64,000 nucleotides of DNA. Source: Ensifer adhaerens (GTDB lineage: Bacteria > Pseudomonadota > Alphaproteobacteria > Rhizobiales > Rhizobiaceae). The notes under the pieces are model-generated. The model was not told the origin of the DNA. It ran no database searches and saw only the letters and a list, made by a program, of their open reading frames with translations. Positions 6,247 through 38,194 of this stretch are shown one piece after another (the stretch's first letter is position 1; every line of letters begins with the position of its first letter). The stretch lies in contig NZ_CP118610.1 in the NCBI RefSeq assembly GCF_028993555.1, positions 2,604,001 through 2,668,000 on the forward strand. The letters run 5' to 3'. The translations under genes were made by a program, and so were the position numbers.

Positions 6247-8304
6247 TTAGCTGTCGAGGAAGCTTCTGAGCTTCCTGGAGCGGCTCGGATGCTTGAGCTT
6301 GCGCAGCGCCTTCGCTTCGATCTGGCGGATACGTTCGCGGGTAACCGAGAACTGCTGACCGACTTCTTCGAGCGTGTGGTCGGTGTTCATGCCGATTCCG
6401 AAGCGCATGCGCAGCACGCGCTCTTCGCGCGGCGTCAACGAGGCGAGAACGCGGGTGGTCGTCTCGCGCAGGTTCGCCTGGATGGCGGCGTCGATCGGCA
6501 GCAGCGCGTTCTTGTCCTCGATGAAATCGCCGAGGTGCGAGTCTTCTTCGTCACCGACGGGCGTTTCGAGCGAGATCGGCTCCTTGGCGATCTTCAGGAC
6601 CTTGCGGACCTTTTCGAGCGGCATGGCGAGCTTTTCGGCCAGCTCTTCCGGCGTCGGCTCGCGGCCGATTTCGTGCAGCATCTGGCGCGAGGTGCGGACG
6701 ATCTTGTTGATCGTCTCGATCATATGCACCGGAATACGGATCGTACGGGCCTGGTCGGCGATCGACCGGGTGATCGCCTGACGGATCCACCAGGTGGCGT
6801 AGGTCGAGAACTTGTAGCCGCGGCGGTATTCGAACTTGTCGACCGCCTTCATCAGGCCGATGTTGCCTTCCTGAATGAGGTCGAGGAACTGCAGGCCGCG
6901 GTTGGTGTACTTCTTGGCGATGGAGATGACGAGGCGCAGGTTGGCTTCGACCATTTCCTTCTTGGCGATGCGCGCTTCGCGCTCACCCTTCTGCACCATG
7001 GAGACGATACGGCGGAATTCGGCGATCGAGATGCCGGTTTCGGTCGCGAGATTCTGGATCTCCTGGCGGATGTCGCGGATCGTCTGGTTTTCGCTCTTGG
7101 CGAATTCCTTCCAGCCCTTGCCGGCGAGATTGCTGATCGACTTCATCCAGTTCGGGTCGAGTTCGGCACCCGAATACTGCTCCAGGAACGAGTCACGCTT
7201 GACGCCGTAGCTTTCGGCAAGGCGCAGCAGGCGGCCTTCGTTCTGCATCAGGCGCTTGGAGATGTCGTAGAGCTGCTCGACGAGGCTGTCGACGCGGTTC
7301 TGGTTGAGCGACAGCGACTTGACCGCCTTGATCAGCTCGTCCTTGAGCTCCTTGTAGCGGCGCTCCTGGGCGGGCGACAGCGTGCCGGTGGCAGCAAGGC
7401 GGGCTTCCACCTGCTGGTCCTGCAGCTTGCGCAGCTTCTTGTAGGTCTCGGCGATGATGTCGAGGGTTTCCATGACCTGCGGGCGCAGTTCCGCTTCCAT
7501 GGCGGCGAGCGAGAGGTTCGACTCGTCGTCGTCTTCCTCTTCTTCCTCGGCCGGCATGACATCGCCGCCGACATTGGTGATGTCGTCGTCGTTGGCGGCC
7601 GTGCGCACCTTGCGGGTCTTTTCCTTTTCCTCGGCAGCCTTCCGGTCGGCCTCGATCTTTTCGGGGCTCTGGAACTGCGGGGCAGCCTTGGCCTCTGGCC
7701 CGGAATAGGTGGTTTCGAGATCGATGATCTCGCGCAGCAGCGTCTGGCCCTCGTTCAGTTCGTCGCGCCAGATGATCAGCGCCTGGAAGGTCAACGGGCT
7801 CTCACAGAGACCGGCGATCATCGTCTCGCGGCCAGCCTCGATGCGCTTGGCAATCGCGATTTCGCCTTCGCGCGACAGGAGCTCGACCGAGCCCATTTCG
7901 CGCAGGTACATGCGGACCGGATCGTCAGTACGATCGGTCGGTTCCTTCTTCTTGCTGGTCGCAAGCGCCGTGCCGCCGGAAGGCGCGAGTTCGCCGCCTT
8001 CGCTCTCGCTGTCGTCGTCGCTGGCCTCGTCGTCACCGCCGCCGGCAGCCTCTTCGGCTTCCTCGTCCTCGATCACGTTGATGCCCATGTCGGACAGCAT
8101 CGCCATCGTGTCTTCGATCTGTTCGGAGGTGACTTCCTCGGACGGAAGGACGGAATTGAGCTCGTCCATCGTCACGTAGCCGCGCTTCTTGGCGGCCTTG
8201 ATCATCTTCTTGACAGCGTCGTCGGAAAGATCGAGAAGCGGACCGTCCGGAGCACCTTCGCGTTCTACGTCAGCTTCTTCGTTTTCTTTGACTTTGGTTG
8301 CCAT
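6247..8304 (-). CDS. rpoD: RNA polymerase primary sigma factor (sigma-70/RpoD)
   Basis: The 685-residue product is full length for an alphaproteobacterial housekeeping sigma factor. Region 1.1 is at the N-terminus, a long acidic spacer (runs of Glu/Asp near residues 70-110 and 240-265) precedes the non-essential region, and region 2 '[21 protein letters not shown]' is near residues 485-510. Region 3 follows, and region 4 with helix-turn-helix '[16 protein letters not shown]' is near 645-665. It directs core RNA polymerase to housekeeping promoters. A ribosome-like 'GGAAAG' precedes the ATG. The gene is monocistronic between a terminator and a 718-base upstream gap. Confidence 0.98.
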
Positions 8305-23875: not shown

Positions 23876-24127
23876 CTATTCGTAGATCGCCGCTGAATGG
23901 AACATTCGAGCGATGTCTCGCCAGGTCAAGGATACCGCTTCCTGTTTTCCTTGGCTCCGCTCGTGATCCCCCATATCGCTGACCCACGCCTCCAGCGCTT
24001 TGAGAAAATCGTCCAGGTTGACGTTCTCCCAGTTCTCCGAGTCGTCACGCAGGCTTAGCCGCAACGCGCTAGCAAAGTCGCAGAACTCCTGACGGGTCTT
24101 AATCTTGCTGTAGTCGACGTCACTCAT
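23876..24127 (-). CDS. Small acidic protein, DUF7660-like
   Basis: The 83-residue product reads 'MSDVDYSKIKTRQEFCDFASALRLSLRDDSENWENVNLDDFLKALEAW.SDM', a pattern I associate with the DUF7660 group of small acidic proteins, some found among immunity-type genes. The assignment is from memory and unverified. Base composition is clearly lower in G+C than in neighbouring genes, which hints at acquisition by transfer. The ATG is preceded by GAGGTGAAAG. A strong inverted repeat lies just upstream at 24145-24175. Confidence 0.65.
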   Translation of the reverse strand: MSDVDYSKIKTRQEFCDFASALRLSLRDDSENWENVNLDDFLKALEAWVSDMGDHERSQGKQEAVSLTWRDIARMFHSAAIYE

Positions 24128-24175: not shown

Positions 24176-24437
24176 GGCAATGCCCATACTCGGTCGTCAT
24201 TCGAGCGTTGCCAAAATGGAATTATGGCGGCCACTTGATCGACCACGAAACGTATCAGCCAGAAACGGTTCTTGATTGAGATTTATTCAAAAAAATCAGC
24301 GACGTTCGGCATTTTTCGAAATGCCATAATTTAGCCATCACAACTGTCGCGGACCGCCGCAATTCCGTCCTGCAACAGCCGGTTTCCGGGCCTTTTCTTC
24401 GATGATCCGAACACATTCGCATTACGGGGGTTATGCA
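24176..24437. other. AT-rich intergenic leader before the sortase-substrate gene
   Basis: This contains a small hairpin GGCATTT-TTCG-AAATGCC (24310-24327) and otherwise no gene. It probably holds the promoter of the two-gene sortase unit. Confidence 0.45.
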
Positions 24438-26792
24438 ATGTTTCTCGACGACGAAATTGCCTCTTCCAGGACAGGACGGAACGAAGCGCGCTGGGGCATG
24501 TACCTGGCGCTCGCAGCGCTTGCCGCCTGCATCCTGATGTTCATCGGCCTGATGACCCAGGCCGCCGCCGAAACGGCGGGCGCCAAGCCGCAGCAGATGG
24601 CGGGCTACGTTCGCCCCAACGACATTGGCACAGGCGCCCTGCTCTTCCCATCCAAGGAACCCGGCTATTTCGTCGAGGCGCCACGGCTTGCGACCGACGT
24701 TCAGATCGACGTCAACGGCCCGATCATGCGCACCCGCGTGACCCAGCGCTTCGAAAACCCGAGCAAGGGCTGGGTCGAAGGCACCTATGTCTTCCCCCTG
24801 CCCGAGGATTCGGCCGTCGATACGCTGAAGATGCAGATCGGCGACCGCTTCATCGAAGGCGAGATCAAGGCGCGCCAGGAAGCCAAGGAAATCTACGAGC
24901 AGGCGAAAGCCGAGGGCAAGAAGGCGGCACTGCTCGAACAGCAGCGCCCGAATATCTTCACCAACCAGGTTGCCAATATCGGCCCCGGCGAAACGGTGGT
25001 CGTGCAGATCGAGTATCAGAGCGCGGTCCGCCAATCGAACGGCCTCTACTCCCTGCGCTTCCCGATGGTGGTCGCGCCCCGCTACAATCCCGAGCCGATC
25101 GTTCAGACCGTCGATCTCGATAGCCGCACCGGCTATGCCGTCAGCGATCCAGTCCCTGATCGCGAAAAGATCGAAGCGCCGGTTCTCGACCCGAAGGCAA
25201 ATGCGAAAATCAATCCGGTCACGCTGACCGTCAACCTCAAGGCCGGCTTCCCGCTCGGCGAGGTCAGGTCCGCCTATCACGACGTCGACATCGCCAACCT
25301 CGACGATCTCAGCCGCCGCATCGCGCTGAAAGGCGAAAGCGTGCCGGCCGACCGTGACTTCGAACTCACCTGGAAGGCGATCGAGGGCAAGAGCCCCTAT
25401 GCCGGACTTTTCCGTGAGACGGTGGGGAACAAGACCTATCTGCTCTCCTTCGTCACGCCACCGGCAGCCGCAACCGATGCCGATGCCAAACCGGTCAAAC
25501 GTGAGATCGTCTTCGTCATCGACAATTCCGGTTCCATGGCCGGCCCCTCGATGGAGCAAGCCAAGGAGAGCCTGGCGCTGGCCATTTCCAGGCTGAAGCC
25601 CGAGGACCGTTTCAACGTCATCCGCTTCGACGACACCATGTCGGTGCATTTTCCAGAACTCACCGAGGCGACACCGGACAAGCGTGAAAATGCCATTGCC
25701 TATGTCCGTGGGCTCACGGCCGATGGCGGCACGGAAATGCTGCCGGCGTTGGAAGCAGCCCTGCGCACCCAGGGGCCGGTTCAGGCCGGCGCGCTTCGCC
25801 AGGTCGTCTTCCTCACCGACGGCGCGATCGGCAACGAGAGGCAGCTCTTCGACGAGATCCAGAAGAACCGCGGCGACGCCCGCGTCTTTACCGTCGGCAT
25901 CGGCTCGGCCCCGAACAGCCACTTCATGACCAAGGCCGCCGAATACGGTCGCGGTACGTTCACGCTGATCGGTTCGGAAAGCCAGGTGGCGACACGCATG
26001 GGCGAGCTTTTCACCAAGCTCGAAAGCCCCGCAATGACCGATATCTCCGCGAGCTTCGAGGCCGCGTCGGCAAGCGACATCACCCCGAACCCGATGCCCG
26101 ATCTCTATCGCGGCGAGCCTGTCGTGCTGACCGCCGAACTCGACGGCACGGCGCCTCAGGGCAAGCTGCAGATCCTCGGCAAGGCCGGCGACCAGCCCTG
26201 GCGGGTCGAGATGGACATCGCCAAGGCTTCGACCGGCCAGGGCATCGCCAAGCTCTGGGCCCGCCGCAAGATCGACGACCTCGAAGCGAGTGCGGCGACG
26301 ATCGCCGACCCCGCCACGCTCGACCAGCAGATCGAGACCGTGGCGCTTACCCATCACCTCGTCTCCCGCGTCACCAGCCTCGTCGCGGTCGACGCAACGC
26401 CGTCGCGCCCGGCCGGCGAACCACAAGCCGAAACCAGGCTGCCGCTCAACCTTCCGGCTGGCTGGGACTTCGGCAAGATCTATGGGGAACAGTCCGGCAA
26501 GGCCGTGCCCGAAAAGGTTGACGAACGTGACGCCGCGCTCGAAAGCCGAACCAAGCTGGCCATGGTGACGGCCGACCGGATGCTGGCGGCACCAACCGCG
26601 CGGGCGGCAGGCCTGATCGCAGAGGCCAACAACCAGGTCACCCTGCCGCAGACGGCGACGGAAGCGGACAAGCAGATCCTGATCGGCCTGATGCTCTTGG
26701 CCTTTGCCCTCCTCGCCGGCACGACCTTCGTCTTCTGGCGCGCGCCGATCGCCACCATCGTGCTTGCGGGAGTGCGCCGCCGTGGCCGCTGA
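24438..26792 (+). CDS. VIT and vWA domain protein, proteobacterial sortase target
   Basis: The 784-residue product has an N-terminal membrane/signal segment (about residues 22-42). A VIT domain follows at about 60-190 ('VTQRFENPSKGWVEGTYVFPLPEDSAVD', 'KARQEAKEIYEQAKAEGKKAALLEQ.RPNIFTNQVANI'). The vWA domain carries an intact MIDAS motif 'DNSGSM' (Asp362) and 'LTDGAIGNE'. The C-terminus has 'LPQTA' at 736-740, then a hydrophobic segment and a tail 'RRRGR', the layout of a sortase sorting signal. It matches the family described as marine proteobacterial sortase target proteins. The next gene is the matching sortase and overlaps it. Ligand unknown. Confidence 0.9.
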   Translation: MFLDDEIASSRTGRNEARWGMYLALAALAACILMFIGLMTQAAAETAGAKPQQMAGYVRPNDIGTGALLFPSKEPGYFVEAPRLATDVQIDVNGPIMRTRVTQRFENPSKGWVEGTYVFPLPEDSAVDTLKMQIGDRFIEGEIKARQEAKEIYEQAKAEGKKAALLEQQRPNIFTNQVANIGPGETVVVQIEYQSAVRQSNGLYSLRFPMVVAPRYNPEPIVQTVDLDSRTGYAVSDPVPDREKIEAPVLDPKANAKINPVTLTVNLKAGFPLGEVRSAYHDVDIANLDDLSRRIALKGESVPADRDFELTWKAIEGKSPYAGLFRETVGNKTYLLSFVTPPAAATDADAKPVKREIVFVIDNSGSMAGPSMEQAKESLALAISRLKPEDRFNVIRFDDTMSVHFPELTEATPDKRENAIAYVRGLTADGGTEMLPALEAALRTQGPVQAGALRQVVFLTDGAIGNERQLFDEIQKNRGDARVFTVGIGSAPNSHFMTKAAEYGRGTFTLIGSESQVATRMGELFTKLESPAMTDISASFEAASASDITPNPMPDLYRGEPVVLTAELDGTAPQGKLQILGKAGDQPWRVEMDIAKASTGQGIAKLWARRKIDDLEASAATIADPATLDQQIETVALTHHLVSRVTSLVAVDATPSRPAGEPQAETRLPLNLPAGWDFGKIYGEQSGKAVPEKVDERDAALESRTKLAMVTADRMLAAPTARAAGLIAEANNQVTLPQTATEADKQILIGLMLLAFALLAGTTFVFWRAPIATIVLAGVRRRGR

Positions 26793-27450
26793 CAACGAAA
26801 GGCCCGAGCCACGCCCGGGCTTTCTCGCCCGCCTTTCGGCGGTCGAAACGATCGTGCTTGCTGTGATCGCGCTGATTGCCCTTGCCGGTCTCATGCTGAT
26901 CGGCAAGGGCTTCTACATGAAGGCCAAGGCCGAAGTCTCGCAGGTGCTCCTGAAACGCACGTTCGAGGCACAGTTGCACGGCAACCCTGACGGTAAGCCC
27001 TGGCCCTGGGCAGACTTCCAGACCGCCGCCGAAATCACCGCGCCTCGATTGAACCGCTCGGCAATCGTGCTTGAAGGCGCGAGCGGCGAAGCGCTCGCCT
27101 TCGGTCCAGCCTGGCTGAAGACGACGCCGATGCCCGGCGATGAAGGCACCTCCGTGATCGCCGCGCACCGCGACACGCATTTCCGCTGGCTGAAGGACGT
27201 TAACCCCGGCGACCTCCTGGTGTTGACGCGCAAAGACGGCCGCCGGTTCCTGTTCCGGGCCGGCGAAAGCCGCGTCGCCCGCTGGGATGAGAGCGGCATC
27301 AACGCATCCGCCACCGGCCACCATCTTGCACTTGCCACCTGTTGGCCCTTCGATGCGATCGAACAGGGACCGATGCGCTACATCGTCAATACCGAACTCA
27401 TCGGCGAACAGCGCCCGGTGCCGCTGACGACAGGCTCGATCTCGAAATAA
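26782..27450 (+). CDS. Sortase (marine proteobacterial type), dedicated to the preceding gene
   Basis: The 222-residue protein has an N-terminal membrane anchor ('IVLAVIALIALAGLMLI', residues 18-34) and a class-C/D-like sortase fold. The catalytic triad is visible: His129 in 'AAHRDTHF', Cys187 in 'LATCWPF' and Arg199 in 'MRYIVNTE'. The enzyme should cleave LPxT-type signals and transfer the protein to an acceptor in the envelope. I chose the GTG at 26782, 11 bases inside the end of the substrate gene, after GGGAG; the longer frame from 26704 adds only out-of-family residues. Translational coupling is likely. Confidence 0.9.
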   Translation: MAADNERPEPRPGFLARLSAVETIVLAVIALIALAGLMLIGKGFYMKAKAEVSQVLLKRTFEAQLHGNPDGKPWPWADFQTAAEITAPRLNRSAIVLEGASGEALAFGPAWLKTTPMPGDEGTSVIAAHRDTHFRWLKDVNPGDLLVLTRKDGRRFLFRAGESRVARWDESGINASATGHHLALATCWPFDAIEQGPMRYIVNTELIGEQRPVPLTTGSISK

Positions 27451-27533
27451 ACCGCTTTTGATCGGATGTGACTTGAACCGCTCCTTTTCCCGCCCCAGCT
27501 TGCCTGATGAACGAATCGGCCCGGAGAAGCGCA

Positions 27534-28721
27534 ATGCGGCGAGCGGATGCAGGAACGTCGAAACAGGTAGGCACGCGGCGGCACAGCCCGGCACTCACAG
27601 CGCTTGTCGCTCTGGCCGCGATCGCCGCCCCTTCGGGCGCTCACGCCCAGGAAGCGCGTGAATTCCCGAGCCAGCACGGCACCCTGCGGGTGGAAACCGT
27701 GGCGACCGGTCTCGAACATCCCTGGTCTGTCGAGGCGCTTCTGGGCGGCGGCCTGATCGTCAGCGAGCGTCCCGGCCGACTGCGGATCTTGCGCGACGGC
27801 AAGGTGTCGAAACCGCTGAAAGGTGTGCCCAAGGTCGCCGCGCGCGGCCAGGGCGGCCTGCTCGACATCGCACTCGACCCTGGCTTCGCAGAGAACAGGA
27901 CGCTCTACCTGACAATGGCCGCCAATGGCAAAGGCGGCTACGGTACCGCCGTCGTGCGGGCGAAACTCGCCAAAGACGAGAGCGGTCTCACCGACGTCAA
28001 GGAACTCTTCCGGATGAGCAAGTTCACCGGCAAGGGGCAGCATTTCGGTTCGCGCATCGCGATCGCACCCGACGGCAGCCTGTTCTTCGGCATCGGCGAC
28101 CGGGGCGAAGGCGGTCGGGCACAGGACCCGCGTGATCATGCCGGCGCAATCCTGCATATCAATGCCGATGGCAGTGTTCCAGGTTCCAATCCCTATCGCG
28201 GCGGCACCGGGGGCCTGGCGGAGATCTGGTCGAAGGGTCACCGCAATCCGCAAGGGATTGCCTTCGACCCGAAGGACGGCACGCTTCTGACGGTCGAGCA
28301 CGGCGCCCGCGGTGGCGACGAGGTCAACAATCCGCAGGCCGGCCACAATTACGGCTGGCCGGTCATCACCTACGGCAAGGATTATTCCGGCGCCGAGATC
28401 GGCGAAGGCACCGCGAAGGACGGCCTCGATCAGCCCCTCTTCTATTGGGATCCCTCGATCGCCCCTGGGGCGCTTGCCGTCTATCGCGGCAAGATGTTTC
28501 CCGAGTGGGACGGCGATCTCCTGGTTGCCGCGCTGAAGTACCAGCTTGTCGCACGACTGGAGCGCGACGACAGCGGCGCCATCGGCTCCGAAGAGCGGCT
28601 GTTCGATGGCGAGTTCGGCCGCATCCGCGATGTCGTCGTCGCGCCCGATGGCGCGCTGCTGATGGTGACGGACGAGGAAGACGGCGCCGTTCTTCGGGTC
28701 TCCAAAGGCGCGACGCAGTAA
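27534..28721 (+). CDS. PQQ-dependent sugar (aldose) dehydrogenase, YliI/Asd type
   Basis: The 395-residue product has a signal peptide (cleavage after 'GAHAQE', near residue 40) and a six-bladed beta-propeller of the glucose/sorbosone dehydrogenase family: 'LEHPWSVEALLGGGLIVSERPGRLRI', 'GQGGLLDIALDPGFAENRTLYL', 'GDRGEGGRAQDP..H.GAILHIN', 'WSKGHRNPQGIAFDP', 'EHGARGGDEVN'. Members oxidise aldoses in the periplasm using PQQ. The ATG at 27534 follows CCCGGAGAAG, while the one at 27507 has no ribosome site. The arginines before the hydrophobic core fit the usual signal peptide. Confidence 0.9.
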   Translation: MRRADAGTSKQVGTRRHSPALTALVALAAIAAPSGAHAQEAREFPSQHGTLRVETVATGLEHPWSVEALLGGGLIVSERPGRLRILRDGKVSKPLKGVPKVAARGQGGLLDIALDPGFAENRTLYLTMAANGKGGYGTAVVRAKLAKDESGLTDVKELFRMSKFTGKGQHFGSRIAIAPDGSLFFGIGDRGEGGRAQDPRDHAGAILHINADGSVPGSNPYRGGTGGLAEIWSKGHRNPQGIAFDPKDGTLLTVEHGARGGDEVNNPQAGHNYGWPVITYGKDYSGAEIGEGTAKDGLDQPLFYWDPSIAPGALAVYRGKMFPEWDGDLLVAALKYQLVARLERDDSGAIGSEERLFDGEFGRIRDVVVAPDGALLMVTDEEDGAVLRVSKGATQ

Positions 28722-36077: not shown

Positions 36078-36779
36078 ATGACGACAAAAGCGACTGTCTC
36101 GGACGATGCGGCTCACCTTCTGGTCGTTGACGACGACCGGCGCATCCGCGACCTGCTCAACCGCTATCTGGTCGAACAGGGATTTCGCGTGACGACCGCG
36201 TCCGATGCGGACGAGGCGCGGCGCAAGCTCGTCGGCCTCGACTTCGATCTCCTGATCGTCGACGTGATGATGCCGGGCGAAAGCGGCATCTCGCTGACCC
36301 ATAGCCTCCGGCAGATCAAGACCGTGCCGATCCTGATGCTGACGGCGCTGGCGGAATCGAATTCCCGCATCGAAGGCCTCGAGGCCGGCGCCGACGACTA
36401 TCTGTCGAAGCCCTTCGATCCGCGCGAACTGGTCTTGCGCATCAACAATATCCTGCGCCGCAACCAGCCGGCCCAGGCGCCCAAGGTCGATCAGGTGATC
36501 TTCGGCCCCTACACCTTCTCGGTGGTGCGCAAGGAGCTTCGGCGCGGCGCCGATCACATCCGCCTCACCGACCGCGAGCAGGAGATCATGACGCTCTTTT
36601 CGCAGCGCGCCGGCGAAACCATCCCGCGCCACGAGCTGATCGGCGACGACGCCGAGGTCGGCGAGCGCACGATCGACGTGCAGATCAATCGCCTCCGGCG
36701 CAAGATCGAGGACGATCCATCCAATCCCGTCTGGCTGCAGACGGTGCGCGGCATCGGCTACCGGCTGAGCGTGGACTGA
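36078..36779 (+). CDS. OmpR/PhoB-type response regulator, CenR/PetR-like
   Basis: The 233-residue protein has a receiver domain with acidic pocket 'VVDDD', phospho-acceptor Asp62 in 'LIVDVMMPGESG', Thr in 'MLTAL' and Lys in 'LSKPFDP'. A C-terminal winged-helix DNA-binding domain ends in 'GERTIDVQINRLRRKIEDDPSNPVWLQTVRGIGYRL'. Context (MarR before, histidine kinase after) resembles the essential envelope regulator CenR of alphaproteobacteria; this identity is inferred, not proven. The kinase gene begins about 30 bases downstream, so they should be co-expressed. Confidence 0.93.
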   Translation: MTTKATVSDDAAHLLVVDDDRRIRDLLNRYLVEQGFRVTTASDADEARRKLVGLDFDLLIVDVMMPGESGISLTHSLRQIKTVPILMLTALAESNSRIEGLEAGADDYLSKPFDPRELVLRINNILRRNQPAQAPKVDQVIFGPYTFSVVRKELRRGADHIRLTDREQEIMTLFSQRAGETIPRHELIGDDAEVGERTIDVQINRLRRKIEDDPSNPVWLQTVRGIGYRLSVD

Positions 36780-36811
36780 GATGGCAGTCCTTCCGATGAG
36801 TGCGGCGTCCC

Positions 36812-38194
36812 ATGGCAAGCTTTGACGGCATAGAGCGCGGAGCGGCAGGCTCCAGCGACAACGCCTGGAGGCGCTTCACGCGCTGGCTGCGCCGCCGCCT
36901 GCCGATGGGTCTTTATGCCCGTTCGCTGCTTATCGTCATCATCCCGATGGTGCTCTTGCAGTCCGTCGTCGCCTTCATCTTCATGGAGCGCCACTGGCAA
37001 CTGGTCACACAACGCCTGTCGGCCGCCGTGACCGGCGACATCGCCGCGATCGTCGACCTCATCGATACCTTCCCGGACGACCGCAACATTGCCGAAATCA
37101 TCCGCATCGCCCGCGAGCAGCTCGACCTCAGCATTTCCGTCGAGCCGCCCGGCGAACTGCCGCCGCCTCGGCCGAGCCCGTTCTTCGAAATCCTCGACCA
37201 GATCCTCGGCGAAGAGATCTCCAACCAGGTCCGCCGCCCCTTCTGGATCGATACGGTCGGCAACTCCAAGCTCGTCGAGATTCGCATCAAGCTCGACGAC
37301 GGCCGCATCCTGCGTGTCTATGCCCGGCGCAACCAGGCCTATGCCTCCAACACCCACATCTTCCTCGTCTGGATGGTGGCCGCATCGCTGGTGCTGCTGG
37401 CGATCGCGATCCTGTTCCTGCGTGGCCAGATCCGGCCCATCCTGGCGCTGACCAAGGCAGCTGAAAGCTTCGGCAAGGGCCAGAAGATCGACGACTTCGC
37501 GCCGCGTGGGGCCGACGAGATCCGCCGCGCCGGCCTTGCCTTCATCCAGATGCGCGAGCGCATCGAACGCCAGATCGAACAGCGGACCGCGATGCTGACC
37601 GGCGTCAGCCATGATCTCCGAACCATCCTTACCCGTTTCAAGCTGCAGCTGGCGCTCGCCGGTAACAACCCGGATCTCGACGGCCTGAACCAGGATGTCG
37701 AGGACATGCAGAACATGCTGGAGGGCTATCTCGCCTTCGCCCGCAGCGAGGCGGAGGAAGATGTCGGCCAGCTGAAGCTCAGCGACCTGATGACCCGGTT
37801 TGCGGCGGAAGCCGAACTGCTCGGCAAGACCCTGACCACATCCATCGAGGGCGAAGACGAGGTTCGTGTCCGGCCGAACGCCTTTACCCGCCTGGTCGCC
37901 AATCTTGCCTCGAACGCCTATCGCTACGCCAACACCGTCAACATCGACGCCCGCCACAGTGCCAAGTGGCTCACCATCACCGTTGACGACGATGGCCCAG
38001 GCATTCCCGAGCGCTCGCGCGAGGATGTGTTCAAGCCGTTCTTCCGTCTCGATGAAGCCCGCAATCTCGACAGTTCCGGCACCGGCCTTGGCCTCGCCAT
38101 CGCCCGCGACATCGCCCGCAGCCACGGCGGCAACGTCACTCTTGGAGACAGCCCGCTCGGCGGCCTCAGGGCAACGGTGCGCGTGCCGGCTTGA
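36812..38194 (+). CDS. Membrane sensor histidine kinase, CenK/EnvZ-like
   Basis: The 460-residue kinase has TM1 ('SLLIVIIPMVLLQSVVAFIF', about 36-55), a periplasmic loop of about 130 residues, TM2 ('FLVWMVAASLVLLAIAILFL', near 185-205), a HAMP linker, and a dimerisation helix with His267 in 'VSHDLRTILTRFKL'. The ATPase domain has N box 'NLASNAYRYA', 'DDDGPGIP' and 'GTGLGLAIA'. The usual Pro after HDLRT is Ile here. ATG at 36812 is used; GTG at 36800 is also possible. It is the likely partner of the upstream regulator. Confidence 0.92.
   Translation: MASFDGIERGAAGSSDNAWRRFTRWLRRRLPMGLYARSLLIVIIPMVLLQSVVAFIFMERHWQLVTQRLSAAVTGDIAAIVDLIDTFPDDRNIAEIIRIAREQLDLSISVEPPGELPPPRPSPFFEILDQILGEEISNQVRRPFWIDTVGNSKLVEIRIKLDDGRILRVYARRNQAYASNTHIFLVWMVAASLVLLAIAILFLRGQIRPILALTKAAESFGKGQKIDDFAPRGADEIRRAGLAFIQMRERIERQIEQRTAMLTGVSHDLRTILTRFKLQLALAGNNPDLDGLNQDVEDMQNMLEGYLAFARSEAEEDVGQLKLSDLMTRFAAEAELLGKTLTTSIEGEDEVRVRPNAFTRLVANLASNAYRYANTVNIDARHSAKWLTITVDDDGPGIPERSREDVFKPFFRLDEARNLDSSGTGLGLAIARDIARSHGGNVTLGDSPLGGLRATVRVPA

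Follow-up and report, generated by a model that had tools for sequence, protein, structure and literature searches.

A 64,000-nt stretch of the Ensifer adhaerens genome (assembly GCF_028993555.1, contig NZ_CP118610.1, positions 2,604,001 to 2,668,000; hereafter the window) encodes a Gram-negative sortase beside its single substrate, and our analysis confirmed this pair as a real, ordinary and intact member of an already named cassette family, TIGR03784/TIGR03788. The first gene encodes a VIT-vWA sortase target of 784 aa (24438..26792, + strand, ATG start at 24438), with an alternative, longer reading from an ATG at 24402; the second encodes a class GN sortase of 222 aa (26782..27450, + strand, GTG start), and the two open reading frames overlap by 11 nt. 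Both calls are supported by family and domain matches. We favour, with confidence a little above even, a reading in which the two genes form a one-enzyme, one-substrate cassette that places a periplasmic binding module on peptidoglycan under the control of ExoS/ChvI.

Profile searches against TIGR03784, TIGR03788 and the Pfam VIT, VWA and sortase models, proposed as the check in an initial annotation made from the sequence, all returned matches above the cut-offs. The target scored 864.3 bits against TIGR03788 (‘marine proteobacterial sortase target protein’, cut-off 551.65). On the + strand, hydropathy places a hydrophobic N-terminal export signal at residues ~19–44 (24492..24569), followed by a VIT domain at residues 86–193 (24693..25016; PF08487, E 7.8e-37) and a vWA domain of the VWA_3 type at residues 356–508 (25503..25961; PF13768, E 2.3e-22), in which the metal-ion-dependent adhesion site (MIDAS) is intact (DNSGS 362–366, T432, D461). 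The C-terminus is as originally described and carries the LPxTG-like tail of TIGR03788, with the motif LPQTA at residues 736–740 (26643..26657; E 5.5e-15 with a sorting-signal profile), a membrane helix at residues ~747–768 by hydropathy (26676..26741; 741–781 in the predicted structure) and a basic tail. Over residues 79–659, the modelled VIT-vWA ectodomain shares the fold of inter-alpha-inhibitor heavy chain 1 (6fpy, 9c4f), and its VIT part shows sequence similarity to PARP4 as well. The animal heavy chains differ in that identity is 17%, their DPHF motif is absent from the target and a bacterial sorting tail is present instead.

The initial annotation had also recognized a sortase in the overlapping gene, in agreement with the TIGR03784 score of 195.7 bits (cut-off 158.25) and a Pfam Sortase match above its cut-off. 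A single N-terminal membrane helix is predicted by hydropathy (residues ~20–42). The catalytic residues had been numbered correctly as His129 (27166–27168), Cys187 (27340–27342) and Arg199 (27376–27378), all on the + strand, and these three, together with R130, are invariant in a 25-row sortase alignment (A3). The structural model (predicted local distance difference test score 85.8) places the His-Cys-Arg set on a sortase barrel, as expected for TIGR03784, with the Bacillus anthracis class D sortase 2ln7 both as top Foldseek match and as best solved relative by sequence (E 4.3e-10). Class D models were nonetheless not reached by the sortase (NF033746, 76.2 bits against a cut-off of 165; NF058671, 78.6 against 140), and the class C model gave a weak match of 20.2 bits (cut-off 160). 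For both proteins, the closest relatives come from Ensifer and Sinorhizobium and in many cases are already so named, and the name ‘class GN sortase’ is also used in several plasmid records.

Co-occurrence was assessed in the source genome (G000; 7.77 Mb, 4 contigs), in an order-level sample of 297 genomes searched at curated family cut-offs, in a family-level sample of 151 genomes searched with the TIGR03784 and TIGR03788 profiles, and in 64 named loci found via the target. In the order-level sample, 57 genomes encode a sortase and 59 a target above cut-off. Target matches at E 0.001 occur in 184 of the 297 genomes but are mostly confined to the vWA domain, and only the 59 above cut-off were counted; sub-cut-off sortase matches in G031, G079, G140 and G233 were likewise excluded, that of G079 (82.5 bits, C33:86638-87081) lying in a genome without a target above cut-off. 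All 57 sortase genomes contain a target, and in all 56 genomes with both genes on one contig these lie nearby on the same strand. The profile matches are separated by 57–285 nt in 55 genomes and by 660 nt in G288, where 557 nt separate the reading frames. Targets without a sortase above cut-off were found in two genomes (G251 and G268). In the family-level sample, both proteins occur in an identical set of 18 genomes, one of which (G347) carries a second copy of the pair, cut by the contig (C24:5-1410), and the sortase stands beside the target in 62 of the 64 named loci, the two exceptions being cyanobacterial.

A 40-position hidden Markov model of the sorting signal, built from an alignment (A4) of 22 of 28 tail pieces plus the window's own, gave a single strong match in the source genome (E 5.5e-15); no further sortase substrate was found there with a value better than 0.67. 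Because one strong signal in this genome coincides with a target in every one of the 57 sortase genomes, the pairing is not a matter of chance. The sortase thus adjoins its single VIT-vWA target, as described for TIGR03784, and the proposed dedicated LPxTA substrate is borne out by both family matches and the sorting signal.

The sorting motif follows the enzyme. Among 56 order-level paired targets (window not included), the pattern LP-x-[TGS]-[AGS], starting 32–51 residues from the end, occurs in 55; the motif is LPxTA in 45, a close variant in ten and irregular in one (L037). For targets without a sortase, 18 stretches were taken and 17 classed, L111 being left out because it is cut by a contig end; G251 contributes two of the 17 (L095, without a motif, and L104, with a GlyGly-CTERM tail). 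PEP-CTERM-like tails occur in eight of these relatives; in seven, an exosortase-like gene adjoins the target, and wherever that gene was tested (three loci: L096, L098, L102) it is exosortase T (XrtT) above cut-off. Another six carry GlyGly-CTERM tails. Among 26 genomes tested, only those six encode a rhombosortase above cut-off, which adjoins the target; weaker rhomboid matches appear in all 26. In L096, L098 and L100, a response regulator and a histidine kinase gene, with CreB/PhoB and CreC as best models, follow the PEP-CTERM target.

The remaining three relatives (L094, L095 and L107) keep the helix and basic tail and have lost the motif. Read from the sequences, the MIDAS pieces are kept in L094 and lost in part or entirely in L095 and L107. 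In a quick tree of target bodies without tails (74 rows), one branch sets off all the PEP-CTERM rows and another all the GlyGly-CTERM rows; the three rows without a motif fall within the sortase group, where L094 and L095 cluster with L039 (support 90) and L037 (support 96); the branch of L107 is very long and its placement unsure. L039 carries a sortase gene between the target and a sulfotransferase gene. The corresponding L095 target stops at position 6615 and is followed directly by the end of a sulfotransferase gene at 6650 on the opposite strand, leaving no room for a sortase. The L094 stretch ends 218 nt past the target, so that absence of a sortase there rests on the genome search. Tblastn returned no credible sortase remnant in L094, L095, L107 or L102, and a 193-aa open reading frame beside the L107 target, a conceivable relic sortase, had neither a significant match nor a Pfam family. 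Together, these findings indicate that sortase and motif were lost together in one lineage.

Exchange of LPXTG, GlyGly-CTERM and PEP-CTERM signals among vault-type homologues was described by Haft and colleagues, who also named the strictly Gram-negative sortase (PMC3237569). Relative to that work, the within-order survey and the joint loss of sortase and motif are new. The initial annotation had called the family known but scarcely characterized, which agrees with that paper and with a 2023 study that describes the role of Gram-negative sortases as unknown and regards their distribution as restricted to halotolerant proteobacteria (PMC10581121). Deletion of a putative sortase gene, srtA, in Shewanella left current density unaffected (PMC8176591). 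No experimental study of the TIGR03784/TIGR03788 pair was found in the literature covered, which leaves out most subscription papers.

The pair appears to be switched on by ExoS/ChvI, the rhizobial control system of acid response and host invasion, as we infer for this strain from a predicted box and from a Sinorhizobium meliloti counterpart. A ChvI-type box, GCC-N8-GCC (GCCATAATTTAGCC, 24323..24336, + strand), lies 115 nt before the target start, matches the consensus N-GCC-N8-GCC quoted in PMC9731502 and would place the pair in the ExoS/ChvI regulon. Its position is conserved: among 58 rhizobial upstream regions (window included, many of them from close relatives), an exact box is found at −119 to −108 in 31, a box with one mismatch in 24 and none in three, and the remaining 12-nt bins of the plus strand within −200 hold a box once. 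Scattered matches occur in this set farther upstream than −200 and on the minus strand. In the order-level loci, some GCC-N8-GCC falls within 300 nt on either strand in 31 of 56; apart from the Rhizobiaceae loci L041, L043 and L045, these matches lie at scattered places and their chance level was not computed, and we make no claim for a ChvI box outside the Rhizobiaceae. A consensus promoter scan of the locus gave one promoter-like match, on the opposite strand, and terminators at chance level.

In S. meliloti, the protein SMc01580 is tabulated as the counterpart (80% identity) of an E. adhaerens OV14 protein named as a sortase target (PMC6637203). Its upstream region is bound by ChvI (PMC3687685), and its reporter rises at pH 6, with a smaller rise in the absence of jspA or lppA (PMC10659215). 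The gene also belongs to a published set of rapidly acid-induced, signal-peptide-encoding genes (PMC2651895), is listed as raised in a strain without phosphatidylcholine (PMC8343143) and is among the induced genes of the Clr transcriptome (PMC5498481). It appears as a hypothetical gene in three transcriptome papers and serves as a reporter, and the neighbouring SMc01581 is called a known direct ChvI target in a preprint (PMC12486126). The word ‘sortase’ does not occur in the accessible text of PMC10659215, PMC3687685 or PMC8343143, although the PMC6637203 table does name a sortase target, and a link between the cassette and the ChvI switch was not found drawn in the accessible literature on either.

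The dedicated regulators of the marine cassettes were not detected above cut-off (kinase TIGR03785, 0 of 58 genomes; regulator TIGR03787, 0 of nine). The best TIGR03787 match in the source genome (225.4 bits, cut-off 335.7) is a protein that we take for ChvI because of its gene neighbourhood: the gene lies between pckA and a ChvG-like kinase gene (493 bits, cut-off 740), with an HPr kinase-like gene beyond, an arrangement that we presume to be that of ChvI. TIGR03787 is in turn the best NCBIfam model of this protein (CreB, 206.1 bits), which hints at, without proving, a shared ancestry of control with the marine cassettes. A response regulator and histidine kinase pair is encoded 8.6 kb downstream of the sortase (window 36078-38194, + strand), and G365, G023, G187 and G281 encode weakly TIGR03787-matching regulators 7–9 kb from the pair, not always on the same strand.

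According to the reading that we favour, ExoS/ChvI would activate the operon in response to acid or envelope stress. The target would be exported across the inner membrane by its N-terminal signal and retained by its C-terminal helix and basic tail, its VIT-vWA body lying in the periplasm. The sortase, held in the membrane by its single helix, should by membrane topology have its catalytic domain on the same side as the cut site, facing the periplasm. Cys187 would attack the Thr739–Ala740 bond of LPQT|A with assistance from His129 and Arg199, and the threonyl group would pass to an amine, most likely the side chain of meso-diaminopimelate (m-Dpm) in lipid II or in peptidoglycan stem peptides. 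An inter-alpha-inhibitor-like binding module would thereby become covalently fixed to the periplasmic cell wall, where its MIDAS may bind a ligand. Since m-Dpm is widely used in Gram-negative walls and LPxTA is the motif shared with the B. anthracis enzyme SrtC, peptidoglycan is our first-guess acceptor. SrtC cleaves LPNTA at the T–A bond, with m-Dpm serving as the acceptor (PMC3297441).

Several observations weigh against this reading. The sortase genome G228 also encodes an exosortase above cut-off, on another contig, a counter-case to a motif that follows its enzyme; chance alone would yield a GCC-N8-GCC match within 310 nt in 14% of shuffled versions of the window's upstream region; and the type II secretin GspD, found above cut-off in 41 of the 297 order genomes, is more frequent where the sortase is present (13 of 57) than where it is absent (28 of 240; Fisher p 0.03, uncorrected for kinship). 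This last association would suit a surface adhesin, in which the target, once sorted, would pass through the outer membrane and use its MIDAS to hold a plant or matrix ligand, as would the intact MIDAS, the place of SMc01580 in the symbiosis-linked ChvI regulon and the fact that vWA adhesins are common. We nevertheless consider it quite improbable. GspD was not above cut-off in 44 of the 57 sortase genomes, the source genome included, nor in any of the 14 PEP-CTERM or GlyGly-CTERM genomes, although a divergent secretin could fall below cut-off and only the type II route was searched; an export route across the outer membrane is thus not evident, and a surface adhesin delivered by type II secretion finds no support in this survey. 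The proposal in the initial annotation that the protein may bind a ligand at the surface is therefore upheld in its intact MIDAS and not in its location, against which topology and the GspD survey both speak. That annotation contained neither the connection to ExoS/ChvI nor the interchange of sorting signals.

The acceptor could instead be a membrane amine such as phosphatidylethanolamine, the protein helix being swapped for a lipid-like anchor, as proposed for the products of rhombosortase, which reportedly undergo lipid-like processing. The related bodies with GlyGly-CTERM tails beside a rhombosortase (six genomes) and with PEP-CTERM-like tails (eight genomes, seven with an adjoining exosortase-like gene) lend this some weight, as exchange of sorting signals on related VIT-vWA bodies suggests a common end product. 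However, the three enzyme groups occupy separate parts of the target tree, so that equal end products are not proven; nothing in the sequence indicates a lipid substrate, and the sortases of known acceptor use, to our knowledge, protein or peptidoglycan amines. We regard a membrane amine as rather unlikely. An amine of an envelope polysaccharide would recall the inter-alpha-inhibitor heavy chains of animals, which are joined to glycosaminoglycan through an ester at the C-terminus, but a common fold does not show common chemistry, and DPHF, the C-terminal ester-site motif of those chains, is missing from all 784 residues of the target, making this acceptor very unlikely. Least probable of all is a pilus-type sortase that polymerizes the target, the nucleophile being a lysine from another subunit: the weak class C match that favours it is far below its cut-off, the source genome holds a single sorting signal, and the flanking genes encode an aminotransferase, a DUF7660 protein and a GSDH-type protein.

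Comparison with known systems places the pair closest to the TIGR03784/TIGR03788 Gram-negative cassette, with which it shares both models above cut-off, adjacent genes, one signal, an LPxTG-like tail and a VIT-vWA body. It differs from the marine form in lacking the dedicated kinase at cut-off, and the order-level motif is mostly LPxTA rather than LPxTG; the marine dedicated sortase system presumably also includes an OmpA-family partner, PdsO. The B. anthracis class D sortase (SrtC/SrtD, 2ln7; BasI/BasH) is similar in structure and in its LPxTA motif and likewise shares an operon with a substrate, whereas it acts in a Gram-positive sporulation setting with the regulators SctRS in its operon (PMC3297441), and the window sortase falls below the class D cut-offs (class D sortases are described in PMC4498605). 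The XrtT/PEP-CTERM cassettes also place a related target beside its sorting enzyme (L096, L098, L102), although enzyme and motif are unrelated and, in L096, L098 and L100, regulator and kinase genes follow the target; in the rhombosortase/GlyGly-CTERM cassettes of six genomes, the related target adjoins an intramembrane rhomboid protease in place of the sortase.

Around the pair, a GSDH-type gene (PF07995; window 27507-28721, + strand) starts 56 nt after the sortase. Because 53 of the 57 named rhizobial loci but only six of 57 order-level loci have a homologue close to the pair, this gene is perhaps a member of the operon in rhizobia only. Upstream, an 83-aa DUF7660 gene (PF24693; window 23876-24127, − strand) points away from the target; when reading frames of at least 60 aa in the 64 named loci were searched by BLASTP at 1e-6, no homologue was detected. 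A divergent protein of one cluster is encoded just before the target in 20 of 57 order-level loci (56 genomes, source genome excluded), and the only one scanned (L071:3272-4255) combines a helix-turn-helix with a long C-terminal region, making it a possible local regulator.

A broader view of the system, which we advance tentatively and think rather doubtful as a whole, is that the ExoR-ExoS-ChvI switch has a wall-anchoring arm, in which the sortase would fix a MIDAS-bearing module to peptidoglycan upon ChvI activation. As the marine cassettes carry a ChvI-like regulator of their own, the partnership of cassette and ChvI-type control would then be old, and sortase, exosortase T and rhombosortase would have been exchanged around one module for the same destination without type II secretion.

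These results extend the range of Gram-negative sortases beyond the halotolerant proteobacteria of PMC10581121 to soil rhizobia. The link to SMc01580 brings the question of the acceptor to an organism that is amenable to laboratory work and for which inducing conditions are known, and an answer would tell whether three unrelated sorting enzymes bring one module to one place.

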